Shown one piece after another: positions 8,004 through 60,439 of a stretch of 64,000 nucleotides of DNA. Source of the stretch: Candidatus Izemoplasma sp. GTDB lineage: Bacteria > Bacillota_I > Bacilli_A > Izemoplasmatales > Izemoplasmataceae. Position 1 is the stretch's first letter. Every line of letters begins with the position of its first letter. The notes under the pieces were generated by a model, which worked only from the letters and a program-made list of their open reading frames with translations, had not been told where the DNA came from and did no database searches. The position numbers were made by a program, and so were the translations under genes. The stretch covers positions 1-64,000 of the forward strand of contig JAIPGF010000001.1 in assembly GCA_021736205.1 (NCBI GenBank), read 5' to 3'.

Positions 8004-9260
8004 TTAGTTATTTTTTTCAGGTAATAATGTGAACATGCTGTATCTAGTTTGTTTGGTGAAGTTTGTTAGATAGTTATTTATTTCATCAAGCGTTAACTGG
8101 TCGGCAACGTCTAATATTTCAAAGAGATTACTGTTTAAAAAGTGATATTTAGTAAATTGGTTGGCGATATATTCTAAGCCATTTAATGATTGAATAAAGC
8201 CTCCAAGAATTTGTTTTTTTGTTTTGATAAATTTTTCTTGTGTTATTTTATGGGTACTTAGTTGTTTAAAAAATGTGTTAAAAAATGTTTTAAATTCTTG
8301 GTAATTTTGCGTATCACAACTAAGAATTATATGAGAAAAAGTTGTTTCAACTGAGACATCAATATAAAATGAGTCATTTATAATATCTTGTTCAACTAAT
8401 TGGTTGTATGTTTTAGAACTTTTTCCTAACAATACATCAAAAATAATTGATAAGATTAATTCATCTTTCATGACAGATTTGGAAGGGTCTAATTTAATTG
8501 CAAAGGTTTGTTTTGGAATACGAATGTCCCCATACCCGACACCATCTTGTTTGATGACATTTTTAGGCTCGTTAATAACATCAGCAATGTTTAAGGGATT
8601 AGACGAGCTTTTTAAAGCATGATTCGTTAAAAAGGATACAAGGTTATCTAATTCAAATTTTCCTGTAATGAATAATACCATCGCTTTGGGTTGATAAAAT
8701 GCTTTATGAACTGTTTTTAATAGGTTTTTATCAATTGTGTTTATGGTCTCTTCTGTCCCTAAGATATCATCTTTGACGGGGTGGTTCTTATATAACTGTT
8801 TTAAAAGTGCGTAATAGGTATCGTAGTCTGGATTATCATCATACATGTTAATCTCTTCTGTAATAACTTTAATTTCTTTTTCAATTGTTTTTTTACTAAA
8901 TTTAGGATGAAAGACAAAATCTAGCAATAATGCTAAATTGTCTATTAATTGTCTGGTTGTCGAGAATAAAAAAGTTGTTTTAGTATGTTGCGTAAATGCA
9001 TTCACTGACGCATTTTGCTCACTAAATTCTTTAGATATATTACGCTCATCTAAGGAAAACAACGTGTGTTCTAAAAAGTGAGCGATTCCTTTGGGAAGCA
9101 CAGTATTATTAAAATTAGTGTTGAGCGAACCAAGTTTAGAGGATAATGTAACATAGGTTTTATGAAATCCTTTTTTGGGTAATAAAAACACCTGCATTCC
9201 TGATTTGAGTGTTAATTCATAGAGAGTTTCATTGATGCGCTTGTGGTTATGTTTTATCAT
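8004..9260 (-). CDS. M16 family zinc peptidase, YmfH-like (catalytic member)
   Basis: The inverted zinc motif HxxEH is present as HFLEH near residue 65, with the downstream Glu in TEEINMYDDNPDY. The fold is the pitrilysin/processing-peptidase type. The start is taken at 9260, nine bases after AAGGA; the ATG at 9269 is immediately against that site. It overlaps the neighbouring M16 gene, as in the Bacillus ymfF-ymfH pair, where one subunit carries zinc and the other does not. Substrate unknown. Confidence 0.9.
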   Translation of the reverse strand: MIKHNHKRINETLYELTLKSGMQVFLLPKKGFHKTYVTLSSKLGSLNTNFNNTVLPKGIAHFLEHTLFSLDERNISKEFSEQNASVNAFTQHTKTTFLFSTTRQLIDNLALLLDFVFHPKFSKKTIEKEIKVITEEINMYDDNPDYDTYYALLKQLYKNHPVKDDILGTEETINTIDKNLLKTVHKAFYQPKAMVLFITGKFELDNLVSFLTNHALKSSSNPLNIADVINEPKNVIKQDGVGYGDIRIPKQTFAIKLDPSKSVMKDELILSIIFDVLLGKSSKTYNQLVEQDIINDSFYIDVSVETTFSHIILSCDTQNYQEFKTFFNTFFKQLSTHKITQEKFIKTKKQILGGFIQSLNGLEYIANQFTKYHFLNSNLFEILDVADQLTLDEINNYLTNFTKQTRYSMFTLLPEKNN

Positions 9261-10506
9261 TAGGATCATTCCTTAATAGGCATGTTGTATCTTTTTTTAT
9301 TTTGTTGGCAACACGTTTGATATCTTCTTTTGTAATGGCATTAATTTTTTGTTGGAACAAATCTGGATCAAACGGTTTATCAAATAAGCTCAGATTAAGT
9401 AGTCTTGATGCGAGTGAGCCACTTGAATCTAAACTTTGTAAAAAGTCATTAATAATGGACTTTTTAGCAATATCTAAATAAGATGCATCAACCGTTGTTT
9501 TTAGTGAATTAATCATCTGATCAATATCGTTTGTTGTGTCTTTTCTGTTTTTCTCGTCTAATCCTAAAAAGATATAAAGTGTGCCTTTAAAATAATCATA
9601 GTGACTACTAATATAATAAGCATAGCCTTTTTCTTCTCGAATGATATCGAATAACAAACTATTACTTCCACCACCCAGCAACGTATTAAAAACAACAGCT
9701 GCGTAGTAATCATCATCACCGTAATAGATTGGAAATCGGTACCCAATAGCAAGTTTTGCTTGTTTTACATGTTTGTGTTTAATAATAAGTTGTGGATCAT
9801 TAAACGTTCTATAAAAATGATCAATGAGCGTTAGTGTTTTTTGTCGTGGTTTAAATTTAAAGGTATCATTAAGGACCTGTGTTATTTCTTCTTCATCAAT
9901 ATCACCGATTACATTAATATTAATTAAGTCATCGGTTAACATTGTTTGGTAAGCGTCTTTAACATCTTTTAATGTAACAGTTTTAAGGGATTCTTCTGTT
10001 CCTAAAGCATTTTTCCCATAGGGATCATCTTTAAATAAAGCATCTTTTAATTCTTTGATTGTAAATTGCATTTTATCCGCGTATAAGCGATCAAAATAAT
10101 TTGCGAAAAGTCTTTTTTCTTCCTCGAAATAAGCTCGGTTAAAAACGGGGTTAAATAAGATGTCTTTTAAGACTGTTAATCCTTTTAGTAAAAGGGGTTC
10201 ATGATCTAATGTATAATCATCATTTATCATATTTAATTCAAACAGTAAAAAATGGCTTAAACCAGATTTTGCTGCTTTTACATGGATGCTTGATTGATAC
10301 AACCCTTCTAAATAGTCTGCGAGTTTCTCTTTTGTTGGATGCGCTTTGGTCGCTTTTTCTAATAAATAAGGGACGAGCGCTCTAGGTGTGATATTTTCTT
10401 TAGGAATATCATTGGCTAATACGAGTTGTATTTTTGTTGTTTTAAATTTTGACGTTGAAATGATGTTTATATTAAATGTGTCTTGTTTAATTTTTTTAAT
10501 TTTCAT
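9247..10506 (-). CDS. M16 family peptidase-like protein, YmfF-like (no zinc motif)
   Basis: 419 aa. Same fold as the neighbour, with LVPYLLEKATKAHPTKEKLADYLEGLYQ at the position of the first active-site helix but no HxxEH. The later blocks (FNTLLGGGSNSLLFDIIREEKGYAYYI) match the C-terminal M16 domain. It is probably the non-catalytic partner of the adjacent peptidase. AGGAGACAACA precedes the ATG. A terminator separates it from deoD upstream. Confidence 0.88.
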   Translation of the reverse strand: MKIKKIKQDTFNINIISTSKFKTTKIQLVLANDIPKENITPRALVPYLLEKATKAHPTKEKLADYLEGLYQSSIHVKAAKSGLSHFLLFELNMINDDYTLDHEPLLLKGLTVLKDILFNPVFNRAYFEEEKRLFANYFDRLYADKMQFTIKELKDALFKDDPYGKNALGTEESLKTVTLKDVKDAYQTMLTDDLININVIGDIDEEEITQVLNDTFKFKPRQKTLTLIDHFYRTFNDPQLIIKHKHVKQAKLAIGYRFPIYYGDDDYYAAVVFNTLLGGGSNSLLFDIIREEKGYAYYISSHYDYFKGTLYIFLGLDEKNRKDTTNDIDQMINSLKTTVDASYLDIAKKSIINDFLQSLDSSGSLASRLLNLSLFDKPFDPDLFQQKINAITKEDIKRVANKIKKDTTCLLRNDPNDKT

Positions 10507-10517
10507 TGTTGTCTCCT

Positions 10518-10543
10518 AAAAAAAGTGCGTTGAGCACTTTTTT
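10518..10543 (-). terminator. Rho-independent terminator of the deo operon
   Basis: On the reverse strand AAAAAGTGC-TCAAC-GCACTTTTTTT immediately follows the deoD stop. Confidence 0.85.
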
Positions 10544-11249
10544 ATTCTGCTAATTCTAATGCGATATCCATCATGTTTGTGAATGCACGCTCTCGTTCTT
10601 TGCTTGTTGTCTGGTTGGAATTAACTAAGTTGTCACTGACAGTTAATAAGCAGGCAGCGTTTTTATGTAATACATCTGCATTATGAAATAACGCAAAAGC
10701 TTCCATTTCAACCGCAATACACCCATATTCATCTCTAATACGTTTAAAATCTTCATGATTTTGACGATAAAATACGTCGCTTGAGTGAATGCATCCTTTG
10801 GTGACTGGAATATCTAAGTTATTAGCAATTGTTTCTAATTTAGTATTTAGTGCTTTTGTCGGATATGTGTATTTTTTTTTCTGATTAGACTGTGTTTCAG
10901 GGAATGTTGATTCACTCCATGCCTTATCAGCAAGCAAAACATCATAAAGACTTAGTTCATCTGTATAAGCTCCACAACTACCAATACGAATAATATTATC
11001 AACATCGTAAAACTTATAAAGTTCATAACTATAAATACCAATGCTTGCCATCCCCATACCACTGCCCATGACACTAATCTTTTTACCGTTAAATGTGCCA
11101 GTAAAGCCAAACATATTTCTAACTGTATTAAATTGATGCACATTGTCTAAATAGGTATCTGCGATAAATTTTGCACGAAGGGGATCACCGGGCATTAAAA
11201 CAGTTTTTGCGATTTCATCTTTTTTTGCTTCAATATGTGCTGTAGCCAT
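10542..11249 (-). CDS. deoD: purine nucleoside phosphorylase, DeoD type
   Basis: DeoD splits purine (deoxy)nucleosides with phosphate to the free base and (deoxy)ribose-1-phosphate. The N-terminus TAHIEAKKDEIAKTVLMPGDPLRAK and the MGSGMGMASIGIYSYEL phosphate-binding loop are typical of the hexameric enzyme; VEMEAFALF and TVSDN (catalytic Asp) follow. The start is the ATG at 11249 with AAGGAGAG upstream, not the TTG before it. It is the last gene of an operon with deoC and two membrane proteins. Confidence 0.95.
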   Translation of the reverse strand: MATAHIEAKKDEIAKTVLMPGDPLRAKFIADTYLDNVHQFNTVRNMFGFTGTFNGKKISVMGSGMGMASIGIYSYELYKFYDVDNIIRIGSCGAYTDELSLYDVLLADKAWSESTFPETQSNQKKKYTYPTKALNTKLETIANNLDIPVTKGCIHSSDVFYRQNHEDFKRIRDEYGCIAVEMEAFALFHNADVLHKNAACLLTVSDNLVNSNQTTSKERERAFTNMMDIALELAE

Positions 11250-11260
11250 CAAATCTCTCC

Positions 11261-11920
11261 TTAGTAGTCGTTTGTTGATGTTTCCCCTTTAACGAGTGAG
11301 ACACCACGACTTGTTCCAATGCGGGTTGCGCCGGCATCAACCATTGCTTTAACATCTTCTGCTGAGCGAACGCCTCCTGCGGCTTTAACTTCTTTATCTT
11401 TTGCAACGTGTTTCATTAGTTTAACATCTTCAATTTTTGCGCCATCAGTGCCAAATCCAGTAGATGTTTTAACAAAATCAGCATCAGCATCAACCACTGC
11501 TTGAGAAGCTTGTTTGATTTCATCTTTGGTTAAATAGCACGTTTCAATAATAACCTTTAGAATATTTTTAGGGCATGCTTCTCTGACTGAACGCACTTCT
11601 TTTTCAATATAGTCAAAATCGCCCATTTTAATTTTTCCAATATTTAACACCATATCAATCTCATCTGCTCCATTAGCCAGTGCATCTTTTGTTTCAAAGA
11701 CTTTGGTTTTTATGGTGTTTGCACCAAGTGGGAACCCCACAACAGTGCAAACAAGTACAGGAGAGTCTTTTAAGGTATCTTTGGCATACGCTACCCAATA
11801 AGGATTAACACAGACACTTTTAAATTCATATGTTTTTGCTTCTTCTAATAATGTGTTTAGTTCTTTATCCGTCCCAAATGCTTTTAGATACGTGTGATCA
11901 ATTAATTGATTAATACTCAT
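11261..11920 (-). CDS. deoC: deoxyribose-phosphate aldolase
   Basis: DeoC cleaves 2-deoxyribose-5-phosphate to glyceraldehyde-3-phosphate and acetaldehyde. The Schiff-base lysine lies in [10 protein letters not shown] and the second active-site lysine in [12 protein letters not shown]. 219 aa is normal for the family. It overlaps the membrane-protein gene upstream by 11 bp and precedes deoD by 11 bp, so deoxynucleoside breakdown is coded in one transcript. Phosphopentomutase (deoB), the linking step, lies elsewhere at 53919. Confidence 0.96.
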
Positions 11921-12551
11921 AAATATTCATCCTTTCAAAAATACGAAGATATAATTTAACTAAATAACCGACTGAAATACCTGATATAAGTGTTCCAATA
12001 TTAATCATACCAAAGTTAATGCCAGCTATAATTCCTAAAATAAGTGCTACTATAACAGCAGATAACTCTATTATAACACGAGTTTTAATAAGATTTGAAG
12101 TGTTTTGTATATCCATGATTACTAACATCAATTCATCAAAGACACCAGCAGGATATTTTGTGATGATTAACGTCGCTCCCCCAAGGGGTAAAAGCAAAAT
12201 GCCACTTACAAATAACAAGACTTGATTTTGCCACGTGTTAACCACAAGATTTTCAAATATAACTAGATTTAATACATCCACTAAAACACTCACAATAACC
12301 ACCGGAATCATCATAAATAAGTAAACCTTTTTCTTTCGCATTATCACAACAATGATGGTTGTGATAAATGCGACCAAAAAGACGGCAGTTCCTAAGGTGA
12401 TATTAAATAAGACATGGATACTATAATGCAGTGTGTCCCACGTGGGGACACCTAAGTGACTTTTCAACATTAGTACAACACCTAGTGCGATAAATACAGA
12501 GCCCAATAGATAAAGCACAACATTCATTAAAACAGAGTTAATTTTTGGCAT
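11910..12551 (-). CDS. YczE/YitT-like integral membrane protein (second paralogue)
   Basis: About 213 aa with five hydrophobic segments. It shares with the neighbouring gene the motifs LGxGVxxLxxxxLGxxxWDT near the N-terminus, [15 protein letters not shown] in the middle and [21 protein letters not shown] near the end, which are typical of YczE-type proteins. Transport function is not established for the family. Being inside a deoC-deoD operon suggests nucleoside or base movement; that is inference. The ATG at 12551 is chosen over a GTG at 12563, but the ribosome site is weak. Confidence 0.75.
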
Positions 12552-13200
12552 GTTCAATAACACCCAATCGTTTTAAATAAAATGTAAGAATCGGTGGTAA
12601 TATAAGAGCCATGATGACACTACCAACATTGACGGCACCAAAGCCAATTCCTGCTAAAAATCCAAAGAGTGTTCCTAAAGAAATTCCTAGGATTTCAATC
12701 CCGATTCGGATTGCTGTAAGATTTTTTGTACTAAAAATATCGGCTATCATAATCATTAATTCATCAAATACAAAGGCGGGAAAATGCGACCTAATAATCA
12801 TCGCTAAGCCAAATGGTAAAAGAATAGCTCCCAGTAAGTAAAATAATAATTTCATGGCGATTGCTTGTGGGTAGTAAGCTCCAAAGATAAGAATATCCCA
12901 AAAATCAAGGGAGACCCCGACTAAAAAGATTGGGAGTAACATGAAGATGAGTTTCAGTTGTTTTGTATAACTTAATATAATAATCATCAAGATAATACTC
13001 ACGGCCCATGATGTAAAGCCTAAGGTGAAGTTAGGGAATTTTAAATTAATCAAAGCTCTTAAGTTGGCTGTAACAGTATCCCATGCCCCAGCACCAAGCT
13101 GTGATCTTAATAGAAAAATAACGCCTAATCCTAATACGAAAAATCCACCTATGTAAAATAAAATGTTTTTAAGTGAAAATTCAACATTTCTTGTTTGCAT
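12538..13200 (-). CDS. YczE/YitT-like integral membrane protein (first paralogue)
   Basis: 220 aa and five predicted membrane segments, paralogous to the next gene: LGLGVIFLLRSQLGAGAWDT, PAFVFDELMIMIADI and GAVNVGSVIMALILPP. It is the first gene after the putative riboswitch and has a strong AGGAGG site 6 bases before its ATG. The gene overlaps its paralogue by 14 bp. Tandem duplication with divergence suggests a heteromeric pair. No substrate can be read from the sequence. Confidence 0.75.
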   Translation of the reverse strand: MQTRNVEFSLKNILFYIGGFFVLGLGVIFLLRSQLGAGAWDTVTANLRALINLKFPNFTLGFTSWAVSIILMIIILSYTKQLKLIFMLLPIFLVGVSLDFWDILIFGAYYPQAIAMKLLFYLLGAILLPFGLAMIIRSHFPAFVFDELMIMIADIFSTKNLTAIRIGIEILGISLGTLFGFLAGIGFGAVNVGSVIMALILPPILTFYLKRLGVIEHAKN

Positions 13201-13220
13201 AGTAACCTCCTAAAATAAAT

Positions 13221-13290
13221 TTATCGTACTAAGTCAATTTCAGGGGACTTGTGGAACTCCTAACCGTATTATAGGATTAGACGACACCAT
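13221..13290 (-). promoter_or_regulatory. purine-family riboswitch aptamer, atypical binding core
   Basis: On the reverse strand the leader folds as a three-way junction. P1 is GUGUCGU with ACGAUA, P2 is CCUA/UAGG, and P3 is AAGUC/GACUU. Loop 2 (UAAUACGGU) and loop 3 (CCCUGAAAUU) carry the GG and CC plus AAAU signatures of the purine riboswitch kissing loops. J1/2 is UAAUC as expected. J2/3 reads GUUCCAC where the family has GUUUCUACC, so one U is missing and position 51 is C. The base at ligand-pairing position 74 reads G rather than C or U. It ends ~20 bases before the first gene's AGGAGG, so control of translation is likely. Identification is by eye. Confidence 0.7.
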
Positions 13291-13308
13291 AATTTTACCA
13301 AATTAAAG

Positions 13309-13345
13309 AAAAAAATCAACAATAACAGACTTGTTATTGTTGATT
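13309..13345 (-). terminator. Rho-independent terminator after ileS
   Basis: A 14-bp stem beginning AATCAACAATAACA with a four-base loop, followed by T-rich sequence on the reverse strand. A TTGATT / 16 bp / TAAAAT promoter-like pair for the deo operon overlaps its distal arm. Confidence 0.85.
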
Positions 13346-13351
13346 GTTATA

Positions 13352-16081
13352 TTATTGGTTCGAAACGATTTCTTCACAACGTTCGCAAAGACCTTCATCT
13401 GTTTCTTCAACGATTTGCCAACAACGTTCACATTTATCGCCTTCTGCTTTTTCTACGTCAATGCTTAAGTTGTCAAATGTATATTTTCCGGTGCCTTCTT
13501 TCATCTCAAACTGACTAACGATGAAAACTTGACCTAAATCAATTGGTAGAGACTGAAGTAATTCTTTGACGTCTCCTTCAGGATAAAGCGTTAATTTTGA
13601 ATCAAAACTTTTCCCAATGACTTTTTCATCTCTAGCTGTTTCTAGTGCTTTTAAGACATTCGAACGAATTGCCATAAATTTATCATATTTTGCTTCTAAA
13701 TCACTTGCTTCTAATGTTTTAACTTCTGGCATATTCTCTAAATAGACATTTTCTTCTTGATGATGTGGTAAATGAGTGTAGGCATCGTCTGTTGTATGTG
13801 GTAAGAACGGTGTTAACAGTTTTAACAGTGTTAAAGTTATGTCATACAACACCGTCTGAATACTTTTACGATCGGTATTTTCTGCATTTTCAATGTATAA
13901 AATATCTTTTGTGAAATCTAAGTAGAACGCGCTTAAGTCGCGTGTGACAAAGTTTGTGATTTCACGGTAAACACTATCAAACTCAAATTGATCATAGCGG
14001 TATAAACATTCTTTAACTAAGTTATTTGTTTTAAGCATCATGTATTTGTCAATATCGTTTAAATCAGCAAATGCAATCGCATCTTTATCAGGATTATAGT
14101 CATTTAAGTTTCCTAACATAAAACGAATAGTATTTCTTATTTTACGGTAAGACTCACTAACTTGACGCATCATGTCTTGTGAAATACGGACATCACTTTG
14201 ATAATCAACACTAGCTACCCAAAGTCGGATAATATCTGCACCCTGTTGTTTCATGATTTTTAAGGGATCAACAACATTACCTAACGATTTAGACATTTTA
14301 CGTCCCTCACCATCTAACACAAATCCATGTGTTAAACAATTTTTATAAGGACTTTTACCGGTAGCGGCAACACCTGTTGATAAACTACTGTTAAACCAAC
14401 CACGGTATTGATCTGATCCTTCTAAATAAAGATCACTGGGGTATGGCAGACCAAAATCTTTCATTCCGCCATGGTGTGATGTTCCACTATCAAACCAAAC
14501 ATCTAAGATGTCTGTTTCTTTTTCAAACCGACCATTGGGACTAGCTGGATTTGTGTATCCGTCTGGAAGTAATTCTTCAGCAGGTAGTTCAAACCAGGCA
14601 TTGGTGCCTTTTTCTGCAATGATACTAGCCACATGGTTAATCACTTCTTTATCTAAAATAGGACTTTTATCTTCGTTATAAAAGACAGGAATAGGAACGC
14701 CCCAAGCTCGTTGACGACTAATACACCATGCTTCACGATCTTTTACCATGTTTTCCATACGAACTTCGCCCCATTTAGGGAACCAGTTAATTGCTTCTAT
14801 TTCTTTAAGCATGGCTTCTTTTAAACTTTCAATTGATGCGAACCATTGATCCGTTGCACGGAAAATAACAGGTTTTTTCGTACGCCAATCATGGGGATAA
14901 CTGTGTTCCATCCATTCTAATTTAAGTAAATATCCTGTTTCATCAAGGTTTTTAACAACCTCTTTTGAACAATCTTCAATAAACAGTCCTTCATATTTTC
15001 CTGCTTCTTTTGTCATGTACCCTTTCGCATCGACTGGACAGAAAGTATCAATGTTATATTTTTGACCAATAACAAAGTCATCTTCTCCATGTCCAGGCGC
15101 GATATGTACAAGTCCTGTTCCACCTTCAGTTGATACGTGGTGTCCTAAAACGATTGGACTAACGCGATCATAAAGTGGGTGTTTATAGGTTGCGCCTTCT
15201 AACTCATATCCTTTGATATCTTTTAGTGTTTCAACATGATTCCAATTTAAATCATGGGTTAATACTTTGATTAATTCAGTTGCGACCAAATAGACTTGAT
15301 CATGATCAACTTTGACAAATGAATATAAGATATGATCTCCTAGTGCAATCGCCATATTTGCGGGAATTGTCCAGGGCGTGGTTGTCCAAATTAAGAACCT
15401 AAAATCGCCATCAAATACTGTTTGATCAACAACGTCCATTCCGACATAAATAGACGGTGATTTTATATCCTTGTATTCAATCTCCGCTTCAGCGAGTGCC
15501 GTTTCACTTGATGGTGACCAAAAGACAGGTTTTAAGCCTTTAAAGATGAGTCCTTTTTCTACCATATCTGCGAATATACGTAACTGCGATGCTTCATATT
15601 TTGGTTTTAGTGTCACATAAGGATTGTCCCATTCTCCTAAAATCCCTAGGCGTTTGAATTGCTCGCGTTGTTTGTCAATTTGTTCATTGGCATAATCTGC
15701 ACACATTTTACGGAATTTCACCTTATCAATAGTAGCACGGTTAACTTTCTTTTGTTTAACTAACGCTGTTTCAATTGGAAGTCCATGCGTGTCCCATCCT
15801 GGTACATAACGGGTATAAAATCCCTGCATGCTTTTATAACGAACAACAATATCTTTAAGTGTTTTGTTTAATGCGTGTCCAATATGAATATCACCATTCG
15901 CATAAGGAGGTCCATCATGTAAGACATACTCTTTGTTGCCTTTGTTTTTGTCTAATCGTTTTTGATAGAGGTCTTGGTCATACCAAGTTGCTTGAATTTT
16001 AGGTTCGTTATTCCCTAAATTTCCTCTCATTTTAAAGTCTGTTTTGGGTAATTGTAAGGTATCTTTATAATTTTTTCCCAT
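13352..16081 (-). CDS. ileS: isoleucyl-tRNA synthetase
   Basis: IleRS charges tRNA-Ile and edits valine. The HIGH motif (GDIHIGHALNK) lies near residue 60 and KMSKS (GRKMSKSLGNV) near 595. The CP1 editing domain contains TTTPWTIPANMA. The C-terminal zinc finger CERCW...CERC is complete. 909 aa is usual for the bacterial type. Expression is controlled by the T-box leader just upstream. It closes the division gene cluster in the same order as in Bacillus, except that divIVA is missing between ylmH and ileS. Confidence 0.97.
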   Translation of the reverse strand: MGKNYKDTLQLPKTDFKMRGNLGNNEPKIQATWYDQDLYQKRLDKNKGNKEYVLHDGPPYANGDIHIGHALNKTLKDIVVRYKSMQGFYTRYVPGWDTHGLPIETALVKQKKVNRATIDKVKFRKMCADYANEQIDKQREQFKRLGILGEWDNPYVTLKPKYEASQLRIFADMVEKGLIFKGLKPVFWSPSSETALAEAEIEYKDIKSPSIYVGMDVVDQTVFDGDFRFLIWTTTPWTIPANMAIALGDHILYSFVKVDHDQVYLVATELIKVLTHDLNWNHVETLKDIKGYELEGATYKHPLYDRVSPIVLGHHVSTEGGTGLVHIAPGHGEDDFVIGQKYNIDTFCPVDAKGYMTKEAGKYEGLFIEDCSKEVVKNLDETGYLLKLEWMEHSYPHDWRTKKPVIFRATDQWFASIESLKEAMLKEIEAINWFPKWGEVRMENMVKDREAWCISRQRAWGVPIPVFYNEDKSPILDKEVINHVASIIAEKGTNAWFELPAEELLPDGYTNPASPNGRFEKETDILDVWFDSGTSHHGGMKDFGLPYPSDLYLEGSDQYRGWFNSSLSTGVAATGKSPYKNCLTHGFVLDGEGRKMSKSLGNVVDPLKIMKQQGADIIRLWVASVDYQSDVRISQDMMRQVSESYRKIRNTIRFMLGNLNDYNPDKDAIAFADLNDIDKYMMLKTNNLVKECLYRYDQFEFDSVYREITNFVTRDLSAFYLDFTKDILYIENAENTDRKSIQTVLYDITLTLLKLLTPFLPHTTDDAYTHLPHHQEENVYLENMPEVKTLEASDLEAKYDKFMAIRSNVLKALETARDEKVIGKSFDSKLTLYPEGDVKELLQSLPIDLGQVFIVSQFEMKEGTGKYTFDNLSIDVEKAEGDKCERCWQIVEETDEGLCERCEEIVSNQ

Positions 16082-16102: not shown

Positions 16103-16335
16103 AAAAAAACGTCCTTAAAAAGGACGAATGAATTCCGCGGTACCACCTTAGTTCTAGAAATTAATCTAGCGCTCAACCTCTTTAACGCAGAGGAACGAAT
16201 TATCTTACTCAATTCAGATAAAAACTCATAGGGGATATACTAAGAAATGTTTTCCAAGTTCACAGCACCACTTGGTCTCTTTAAAAACATCACTCTTAGG
16301 ATGTGTCCTAGTCATCGCAACATAGTTTCGATAAA
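16103..16335 (-). promoter_or_regulatory. T-box leader controlling ileS
   Basis: The reverse strand contains the T-box core AAGGTGGTACCGCGGAATTC (16133-16150 region) and, after it, a terminator CGTCCTTTTTAAGGACG with a T-run (16103-16126). Upstream a stem I is recognisable: AGAGACCAAGTGGTGCTGTG is the AG-bulge/distal-loop region. A candidate Ile specifier codon AUC lies at 16234-16236. Uncharged tRNA-Ile would pair with the T-box and favour the antiterminator, switching ileS on. Confidence 0.92.
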
Positions 16336-16368: not shown

Positions 16369-17049
16369 TTAAATAAATTTTTTATATTTTAAGACTGTAT
16401 TGCCTTTTTTTGTTTGGTGCGGGGTTGATTCGATGAAAAACTTACCTACTTGTCTAATTGAGATCGTATCATCTAAGTTTATCGTTTGGGCAAAATCATG
16501 ACTATATGAATCATTTACTTTTACATAATCATTTAAAATAAGTGTTTTTGCTTTTTCTCTGGCTGTTTCTGCGAGTGTTTTGACAATCACATCAAGTCTG
16601 AGTGATGACACGACTTTTTCAAAATAGAGAAACTCATCATAATATTCAATGATTGGTGTTTGTTCTACTTTCAGTTGCACCTCTGTATTTTTTATACGTG
16701 AAATAATAAGTGCACTAGAACGTACAGCTTTTGTGATAAAAAACAGATTATTTTTAGGTAAAATATCACCAATTTGATTGCGAGGAATGTTTTGTGAAAG
16801 CAATGTTCCTAAAATATCAGGATGTGTAAATTTAGTAGGTGTTTTAGGTATTATTTTTATGGGGATAATTGTAATAGGATGATTAAACGTTGCTACGCGT
16901 TTACGTTTAGCTCGTGAATGTCCGCCTTCAAACCGAATATTCGTTTGACGAAGACGCTCTTTAACAAGAGAAATCTCAGACTCTGATAAAAAATCAGTCA
17001 CGATTGGACGGTCGTCATTTAAGGCATGTTTTAACGTTGTTAAAGACAT
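16369..17049 (-). CDS. ylmH: YlmH-like S4-domain RNA-binding protein
   Basis: 226 aa. The C-terminal ~65 residues form an S4 domain (SLRLDVIVKTLAETAREKAKTLILNDYVKVN), preceded by the YlmH N-terminal region. YlmH proteins act on 50S-tRNA complexes in stalled-ribosome rescue and sit in the ftsZ-sepF-yggT neighbourhood in many Gram-positives. The start ATG overlaps the yggT stop by one base, indicating coupling. Confidence 0.9.
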   Translation of the reverse strand: MSLTTLKHALNDDRPIVTDFLSESEISLVKERLRQTNIRFEGGHSRAKRKRVATFNHPITIIPIKIIPKTPTKFTHPDILGTLLSQNIPRNQIGDILPKNNLFFITKAVRSSALIISRIKNTEVQLKVEQTPIIEYYDEFLYFEKVVSSLRLDVIVKTLAETAREKAKTLILNDYVKVNDSYSHDFAQTINLDDTISIRQVGKFFIESTPHQTKKGNTVLKYKKFI

Positions 17050-17613: not shown

Positions 17614-18252
17614 TTAGGCCTCCTTATCAAATAATACACTACCGAGTCGTAAATATGTAGCGTTATGCTTAAGAGCAATTAAATAGTCATTACTCATGCC
17701 TATAGATAGCTCTTTTAAGTCTATATCTAACTGAGATTTAATCTCTTTTTGTAAGGTATTTAATTGTTGAAACTGACGATGAATTAGTGCTTCATCATCT
17801 GTATGTGTAGCCATTCCCATAAGACCAATAATGTCTACGTTTGGTAGTTTTGTCATTGCTTCTAATGCTGGAATTGCGTCTGCTACTTTAAATCCATGTT
17901 TTGACGTTTCATCTGAAATATTCACTTGCATAAAACATTTTAATGGGGTACTACGTCGTTTATTGATTTCTTTTGCGAGTTTGAGTTTATGTAATGAATG
18001 AAGATAGTCTATTTTTCCAATCATTTTCTTAACTTTTTTTGTTTGCAAAGTTCCGATAAAATGCCATGTAATATCTAGTTCTTTTAATGCAGCTTGTTTC
18101 TCTAGTAAAGCAGACATTCTATTTTCACCAAAATGCTGGATTCCAGTCGTATAAAGCAAGCGCATTTCATGTGGTTTGAAGTATTTTGTTGCAGCAACGA
18201 CTGTGATATCGCTAGGAATGTCTTTTAGTATGTCTCTTGTATTTAATTTCAT
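17614..18252 (-). CDS. yggS: YggS/PROSC family PLP homeostasis protein
   Basis: 212 aa, alanine-racemase-like TIM-barrel. The PLP lysine lies in VVAATKYFKP near residue 24. HFGENRMSALLEKQ, WHFIGTLQTKKV and LSIGMSNDYLIAL are conserved blocks. The protein buffers pyridoxal phosphate and has no established catalytic turnover. Its ATG overlaps the TGA of the 49-residue membrane protein upstream, and sepF begins just after its end. Confidence 0.94.
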   Translation of the reverse strand: MKLNTRDILKDIPSDITVVAATKYFKPHEMRLLYTTGIQHFGENRMSALLEKQAALKELDITWHFIGTLQTKKVKKMIGKIDYLHSLHKLKLAKEINKRRSTPLKCFMQVNISDETSKHGFKVADAIPALEAMTKLPNVDIIGLMGMATHTDDEALIHRQFQQLNTLQKEIKSQLDIDLKELSIGMSNDYLIALKHNATYLRLGSVLFDKEA

Positions 18253-60106: not shown

Positions 60107-60439
60107 ATGTAGTCTATAAGCCATGTTCTGTACCTTTTCAGGCGACAATCATTTATCTACTTGCGTCTCTCGCAAAATTCATTTCTTCTTTGAGAGTGCC
60201 CCTACCAAATTTGGGTTGCTAACTTATGGGGTTTACCCGTTCCACCAACTTAGTTTCCTAAGCTGCTCGTCTCTGTGGCACTTTTACAGATAATAACACC
60301 AGATTAAAGGTGCGTTCTCAGCCATTACACGCAATGTGTATATAGAGTTATGTTTTCCTCTATCATAAGCACTACAAACATCTCAGTTTGTGCTAGCATG
60401 GACTTTCCTAACCTTACGGCTCGATTGTCCGACTACATT
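60107..60439 (-). ncRNA. rnpB: RNase P RNA (class B)
   Basis: The reverse strand begins with AATGTAGTC and ends with GACTACATT (P1 pairing). It contains the core signature AGGAAAGTCCATGCTAGCAC with the CTGAGATG that follows, and near the 3' end ACAGAACATGGCTTATAG. These are the universally conserved parts of bacterial RNase P RNA, which cuts the 5' leader from pre-tRNA. About 333 nt. The order of the helices fits the Bacillus-type (class B) form. Confidence 0.92.

Follow-up and report, generated by a model that had tools for sequence, protein, structure and literature searches.

The purine riboswitches (RF00167; guanine-I and adenine) are built as a three-stem junction with two kissing loops, L2 (AAUAYGG) and L3 (CC(N)NAAA). 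The family is defined by a conserved pocket in J2/3 (UUUCUAC, with U47 and U51) and by a ligand-pairing pyrimidine at position 74 in J3/1. The 2′-dG-I, 2′-dG-II and 2′-dG-III classes are guanine variants that combine this scaffold with an altered core, lie in a deoxynucleoside or nucleoside gene context, and keep a recognisable pocket with C51 and C74-type contacts (PMC9295807, PMC8872408). Xanthine-II and guanine-II use the same scaffold with a J2/3 and a J3/1 of altered length; the alterations are insertions with class-wide junction features, and the gene partners are of other kinds (PMC9295807).

The window analysed here is a stretch of 64,000 nucleotides from Candidatus Izemoplasma sp. (positions 1 to 64,000 of contig JAIPGF010000001.1). 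On its minus strand, a leader with a three-stem element of 65 nt separates ileS (13352-16081) from a YczE-like gene whose start codon is at 13200. It has a P1-P2-P3 layout with purine-type kissing loops and precedes the genes yczE1-yczE2-deoC-deoD. Its parts are as follows:

13222..13286, minus strand: three-stem element from P1 to P1′, with UGUCGU (13286-13281) pairing with ACGAUA (13227-13222)
13277..13280, minus strand: J1/2, (C)UAA; the UAA matches the canonical U22-A23-A24 and is retained in 9 of 13 orthologues
13258..13276, minus strand: P2-L2, UCCUAU / AAUACGG / UUAGGA; L2 is a purine-type kissing loop
13251..13257, minus strand: J2/3, GUUCCAC; variable across orthologues
13231..13250, minus strand: P3-L3, AAGUC / CCCUGAAAUU / GACUU; a purine-type L3 (CCURAAA) with extra conserved flanks
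13228..13230, minus strand: J3/1, AGU; the most variable part of the 13-leader family

The preliminary description of this DNA had proposed a purine-family architecture that diverges from the known model, and both points were borne out. In a cmscan search of 301 bases, positions 13207-13304 (minus) aligned end to end with RF00167 at 33.3 bits (E 0.00092), which is 3.7 bits under the gathering score of 37 bits, and the loops read AAUACGG (L2) and CCUGAAA (L3). The sequences it gave for J2/3 and J3/1 were also correct. A covariance model built from nine leaders only, termed R1, matches 13219-13289 (minus) at 88.6 bits. The minimum free energy of the window element (z = +0.9) is uninformative and alone would not reveal it. 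Elsewhere in the same genome there are three canonical purine riboswitches scoring 67-74 bits. Two canonical guanine-type purine riboswitches lie about 1.6 kb apart on contig C51 of genome G000 (16390-16490 and 18018-18118), with like spacings in G013, G014, G017, G019, G025, G027 and G046. A low-scoring purine riboswitch match outside the yczE operon (G015:C52:6856-6953, 42.2 bits) could be another variant.

The genes downstream of the leader are all on the minus strand:

12538..13200, minus strand: yczE1, YczE/DUF6198-type membrane protein (NF052291 and DUF6198, weak)
11910..12563, minus strand: yczE2, YczE-type membrane protein
11261..11920, minus strand: deoC, deoxyribose-phosphate aldolase (TIGR00126, 270 bits)
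10542..11252, minus strand: deoD, purine-nucleoside phosphorylase (TIGR00107, 275 bits; also NF004489)
8004..10506, minus strand: yfmF and yfmH, an M16 peptidase-like pair that also comes next in the gene order of relatives

These family matches agree with the earlier reading of two YczE-type proteins, DeoC and DeoD, and of a deoxynucleoside-catabolic context. DeoC and DeoD together degrade deoxynucleosides. The YczE proteins are, to our knowledge, membrane proteins without a characterised function; that they take part in uptake is a guess based on synteny. In four genomes yczE1 and yczE2 form a single reading frame of 443-502 aa (L045:3811-5184, L046:224-1555, L050:2019-3419 and L052:1487-2995), suggesting that the two act as one unit. 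The gene order in the contexts read is element, yczE1, yczE2, (deoC), deoD, yfmF and yfmH, and the leader is followed wherever read by deoC/deoD or by deoD without deoC. On the 5′ side, the neighbour in relatives is either ileS or an extra ORF of about 335 aa; the element therefore travels with yczE and not with ileS. An ORF of about 335-340 aa is placed between ileS and the element at L039:8153-9175, L042:3826-4842 and L045:5313-6320. The window also holds an ordinary T-box leader 5′ of ileS (16117-16324, minus; RF00230, 121.7 bits) and an ordinary RNase P class B RNA (60112-60436, minus; RF00011, 251 bits).

Leaders were collected via yczE1 orthologues in 49 genomes of the same Izemoplasma-like family, the named relatives of yczE1 being Mycoplasmatota, Mollicutes and Candidatus Izimaplasma MAGs. 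This gave 13 orthologous leaders, window included, from five genera, all ahead of the same operon. Since 12 more such leaders precede this operon in other genomes, the element is not a chance occurrence; it is real, conserved and unusual. Within the family, R1 scores the 13 leaders at 48-91 bits and everything else below 28 bits, with a single copy per genome. R1 found no member among 90 genomes from the remaining families of the order, and no further true member in samples of the class (395 genomes) and the phylum (392 genomes); plasmids gave no match. Outside the family, its best match (44.7 bits) and all checkable structured matches are canonical purine riboswitches, the remaining weak matches resembling chance. 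In turn, RF00167 scores the leaders at 26-39 bits, with only G018 (38.8) above the gathering cut-off. The element and the purine riboswitch thus recognise each other's models. A search of all 49 family genomes with RF00167 found canonical guanine-type copies to be common and separate from the leader. The element is rare, and some relatives (G027, G044, G045, G048) have the operon without it.

Several candidates were rejected. At L099, a viral contig matches the P2 pattern by chance: the match falls within an ORF, and P3 is missing. The weak R1 matches in G025 (27.6 bits) and at L075, L082, L084-L087 and L089-L092 lack one arm or are chance or coding-like. Literature searches, whose scope did not include the 2017 variant paper (PMC5358364), found no report of this leader. 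The explanation favoured below with moderate confidence includes the proposal that the element is a cis-regulatory RNA confined to this lineage and derived from a purine riboswitch.

The pattern of conservation is where the leader parts from its presumed ancestor. Mean pairwise similarity among the 13 leaders is 0.91/1.00 for P2 and 0.97/0.94 for P3, against 0.62 for J2/3 and 0.37 for J3/1. For 14 canonical purine riboswitches from the same GTDB family the values are 0.43/0.43 (P2), 0.57/0.57 (P3), 0.94 (J2/3) and 1.00 (J3/1). These 14 were chosen by core pattern, which favours fixed junctions, but the same core is what defines RF00167. The loops are conserved alike in both sets. Conservation in the leaders is therefore inverted relative to the canonical riboswitches, with P2, P3 and the loops nearly invariant and the junctions variable. 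The same contrast is seen when the canonical set consists of orthologous loci from four of the same genomes, in which stems drift and junctions stay fixed. The UCCUA/UAGGA of P2 is invariant in 13/13 leaders, as are the GG of L2 and the CC of L3, the last two predicting L2-L3 kissing with two G-C pairs.

The junctions contain few fixed points. J2/3 ranges between 5 nt (GUUAC) and 8 nt (GAAGUAAC), with GUCAC and GUUAUAG among the other forms, and its only constants are the equivalents of G46 and A52 (13/13). The 51-equivalent is U in eight leaders, C in three and A in two. The 74-equivalent can be U, C, G or A, an assignment that depends on the P1 alignment, and J3/1 varies in length as well as sequence. 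The preliminary description had noted a C at position 51 and a G at position 74 and had taken them to suggest a changed ligand. Both bases are present in the window, but they are not features of a class, as both positions and the junction lengths vary among the 13 orthologues. The window bases are one sample of a variable region, and the ligand reading drawn from them was rejected.

These data bear directly on the alternative that the leader is an ordinary small-molecule riboswitch whose junction binds a purine (deoxy)nucleoside in a relaxed or strain-specific pocket, 2′-dG-like where C51 occurs and guanine- or adenine-like elsewhere. Such a pocket would account for the retained UAA of J1/2 (9/13), the constant G46 and A52 equivalents and a pyrimidine at the 51-equivalent in 11/13 leaders. 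C51 is a determinant of nucleoside preference in the 2′-dG classes (PMC8872408), and 2′-dG-III is an ON switch of a nucleoside hydrolase (PMC9295807). A J2/3 of 5-8 nt, a J3/1 of variable length and a 74-equivalent of any base are nonetheless hard to reconcile with it, and it is just there that L057 (AAU) and L058 (AAC), two almost identical elements, diverge. Described classes each own junction consensus features (PMC9295807), and a junction pocket does not explain why P2 and P3 are so highly conserved. This alternative is regarded as unlikely.

Judged from sequence, the leader is not filed as a purine or a 2′-dG riboswitch, since the defining pocket features fail. It resembles RF00167 in its three-stem junction, kissing loops, J1/2 UAA and size, and differs in a junction pocket that is unconserved and length-variable, with the stems conserved instead, and in the sub-threshold score of the window member. 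Neither the UUUCUAC pocket nor a fixed pyrimidine 74 was found. With the 2′-dG classes it shares the altered purine scaffold, the deoxynucleoside gene context and, in the window member, C at the 51-equivalent; the C51 of classes I and II (PMC8872408, PMC9295807) occurs in only 3/13 leaders, and the place of their guanine-pairing C is taken by the variable 74-equivalent. Unlike the insertions of xanthine-II and guanine-II, the J2/3 of the leaders is mostly shortened and is unconserved.

The fold itself is supported by covariation, which backs P1 and, weakly, P3. Across the 13 sequences, both partners have changed in 5 pairs of P1; in L017 this stem reads GAAAUUC/GAAUUUC in place of the common UAUCGUU/AACGGUA. 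P3 has one compensatory pair. P2 has none, since it is never seen to vary, and the case for its pairing is this invariance. The total of 6 compensatory pairs compares with 0.9 in shuffles and a maximum of 3 in slid controls, and the three-stem junction of RF00167 is recovered with 94.7% of cells paired. The preliminary description had pointed to a covariance search and a collection of homologous leaders; these have now yielded 13 leaders with covariation support ahead of the same operon. P2 and P3 are each about one pair shorter than usual, and this matched shortening would keep the arm lengths equal for the kiss.

Two further explanations concern the arms. The invariant P2-L2/P3-L3 pair could be read by a trans-acting protein or RNA that controls translation of the operon, and joint sequence-level conservation of stems and loops is what such a partner would require. 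There is no candidate partner, the element is single copy in each genome, and the match to purine kissing loops is enough to explain the conservation of the loops; this proposal is held to be rather improbable. Similarly given little credence is a ligand-free structural leader, the remnant of a decayed purine riboswitch, which would respond to temperature or Mg2+ or stabilise the 5′ end of the mRNA. The degenerate pocket would suit it, as would an RNA that begins at the predicted transcript start. Pure decay would not be expected to leave forty nucleotides of arms and loops near-constant across five genera while the flanks drift.

The position of the element in the transcript is indicated by the promoter:

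13292..13319, minus strand: operon promoter found by scan, −35 TTGATT, 16-nt spacer, −10 TAAAAT; start predicted near 13285

TTGATT is present in 12/13 orthologues, and in 11/13 an N16-17 spacer is followed by TAAAAT or TACAAT ending 14-15 nt before P2. As the −10 sits at a fixed distance from P2, the transcript is predicted to begin at or just before P1. The gap from P1 to the Shine–Dalgarno (SD) sequence is about 10-20 nt in most members, and no terminator was found within the leader. Because the element spans the region from the predicted start to just before the SD with no terminator between, control of the operon is probably translational. The ileS terminator (13314-13345, minus) overlaps this promoter, its 3′ side holding the −35 TTGATT. 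A similar promoter (TTGATT ... GTAVAAT) lies 5′ of yczE1 in relatives without the element (L024, L027, L029, L030, L033, L034), which suggests that the promoter and the RNA element each have a history of their own.

A possible means of translational control is found in the SD region:

13206..13218, minus strand: SD region UUAUUUUAGGAGG, of which AUUUUAGG is able to form 8 pairs with L3, or else to pair with the P2 5′ arm

L3 and the P2 5′ arm are alike (CCCUAAAAUU and UCCUAAAAUA), and each is complementary to the SD region AAUUUUAGGAGG. This L3-SD complementarity in a probably translational leader also sets the element apart from RF00167. Pairing of L3 with the SD is supported by compensatory changes in divergent members. 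At position 4, 11 leaders have U-A, L009 has A-U and L014 has G-C; at position 5 the pair is A-U, G-U, U-G (L014) or U-A (L017). L014 has ten contiguous L3-SD pairs (−13.1 kcal/mol), and between L014 and L019, of one genus, L3 and SD differ in step on both sides. Own L3-SD combinations give 69/91 pairs versus 62.5 when permuted (p 0.002) with L014 shifted by one, and 65 versus 61.6 (p 0.06) with L014 in the common register, both permutations ignoring relatedness. In minimum free energy folds, 11/13 leaders have the SD in a helix, formed with L3 in 6 and with the P2 arm in 5; in L009 and L017 only 3-4 contiguous L3-SD pairs are available and neither strand holds the SD. The mean probability of a paired SD is 0.75, versus 0.67 in shuffled leaders, from which it does not differ significantly, and 0.56 for other genes of the fetched loci. 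Such folds are weak as a sole argument, since the SD of a shuffled leader also tends to be paired. Pairing of the P2 5′ arm as the only switch was rejected, as the arm, unlike L3, fails to track the SD changes in L009, L014 and L017.

The same L3-SD covariation could serve an OFF switch, in which the pairing forms an H-type pseudoknot on P3 that is stabilised by a ligand; by geometry, P3 could persist during the pairing. The invariant GG of L2 would then have nothing to pair with, and one would less expect a catabolic operon to be shut down by its own substrate. An OFF switch is considered quite unlikely.

The best explanation, given moderate confidence, is a translational switch derived from a purine riboswitch, in which the scaffold is kept, the junction pocket is not, and the folded state frees the SD. 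The element would act on translation from the very 5′ end of the yczE1-yczE2-deoC-deoD mRNA. With the purine-like scaffold unformed, L3 (CCCURAAAUU) or the P2 5′ arm (UCCUAWAAU) would pair with the SD region. Once P2, P3 and the L2-L3 kiss had formed, both anti-SD strands would be taken up and the SD left free, which would make the folded state the ON state. A signal tied to imported deoxynucleosides would stabilise this state. The putative ligand is, as a best guess, a deoxynucleoside or a deoxyribose phosphate, and induction by either would make sense for a DeoC/DeoD operon. For an ON switch on the purine scaffold ahead of such a gene, 2′-dG-III with its nucleoside hydrolase is a precedent (PMC9295807). 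As the pocket is unconserved, a site elsewhere or a protein partner is possible. A more specific version, tentative and somewhat doubtful, sees here a new class of riboswitch built on the purine scaffold and places the ligand site in the paired P2/P3-loop region instead of the three-way junction; it would sense a deoxynucleoside catabolite, such as a deoxynucleoside or deoxyribose phosphate, with L3 handed between L2 and the SD to switch translation.

The window’s pocket bases, not common to its orthologues, are a warning against assigning a ligand from single positions. Known purine-family variants shifted specificity through edits to the junction pocket; here the pocket varies with the arms and loops frozen, which would be a different way of re-using the purine scaffold. 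Izemoplasma-type bacteria are degraders of extracellular DNA and proposed specialists in sediments (PMC8289736, PMC8397711). Since the leader would govern deoxynucleoside breakdown in these marine bacteria, which lack a cell wall and are proposed extracellular-DNA eaters, a sensor for DNA-derived nucleosides would be directly testable.
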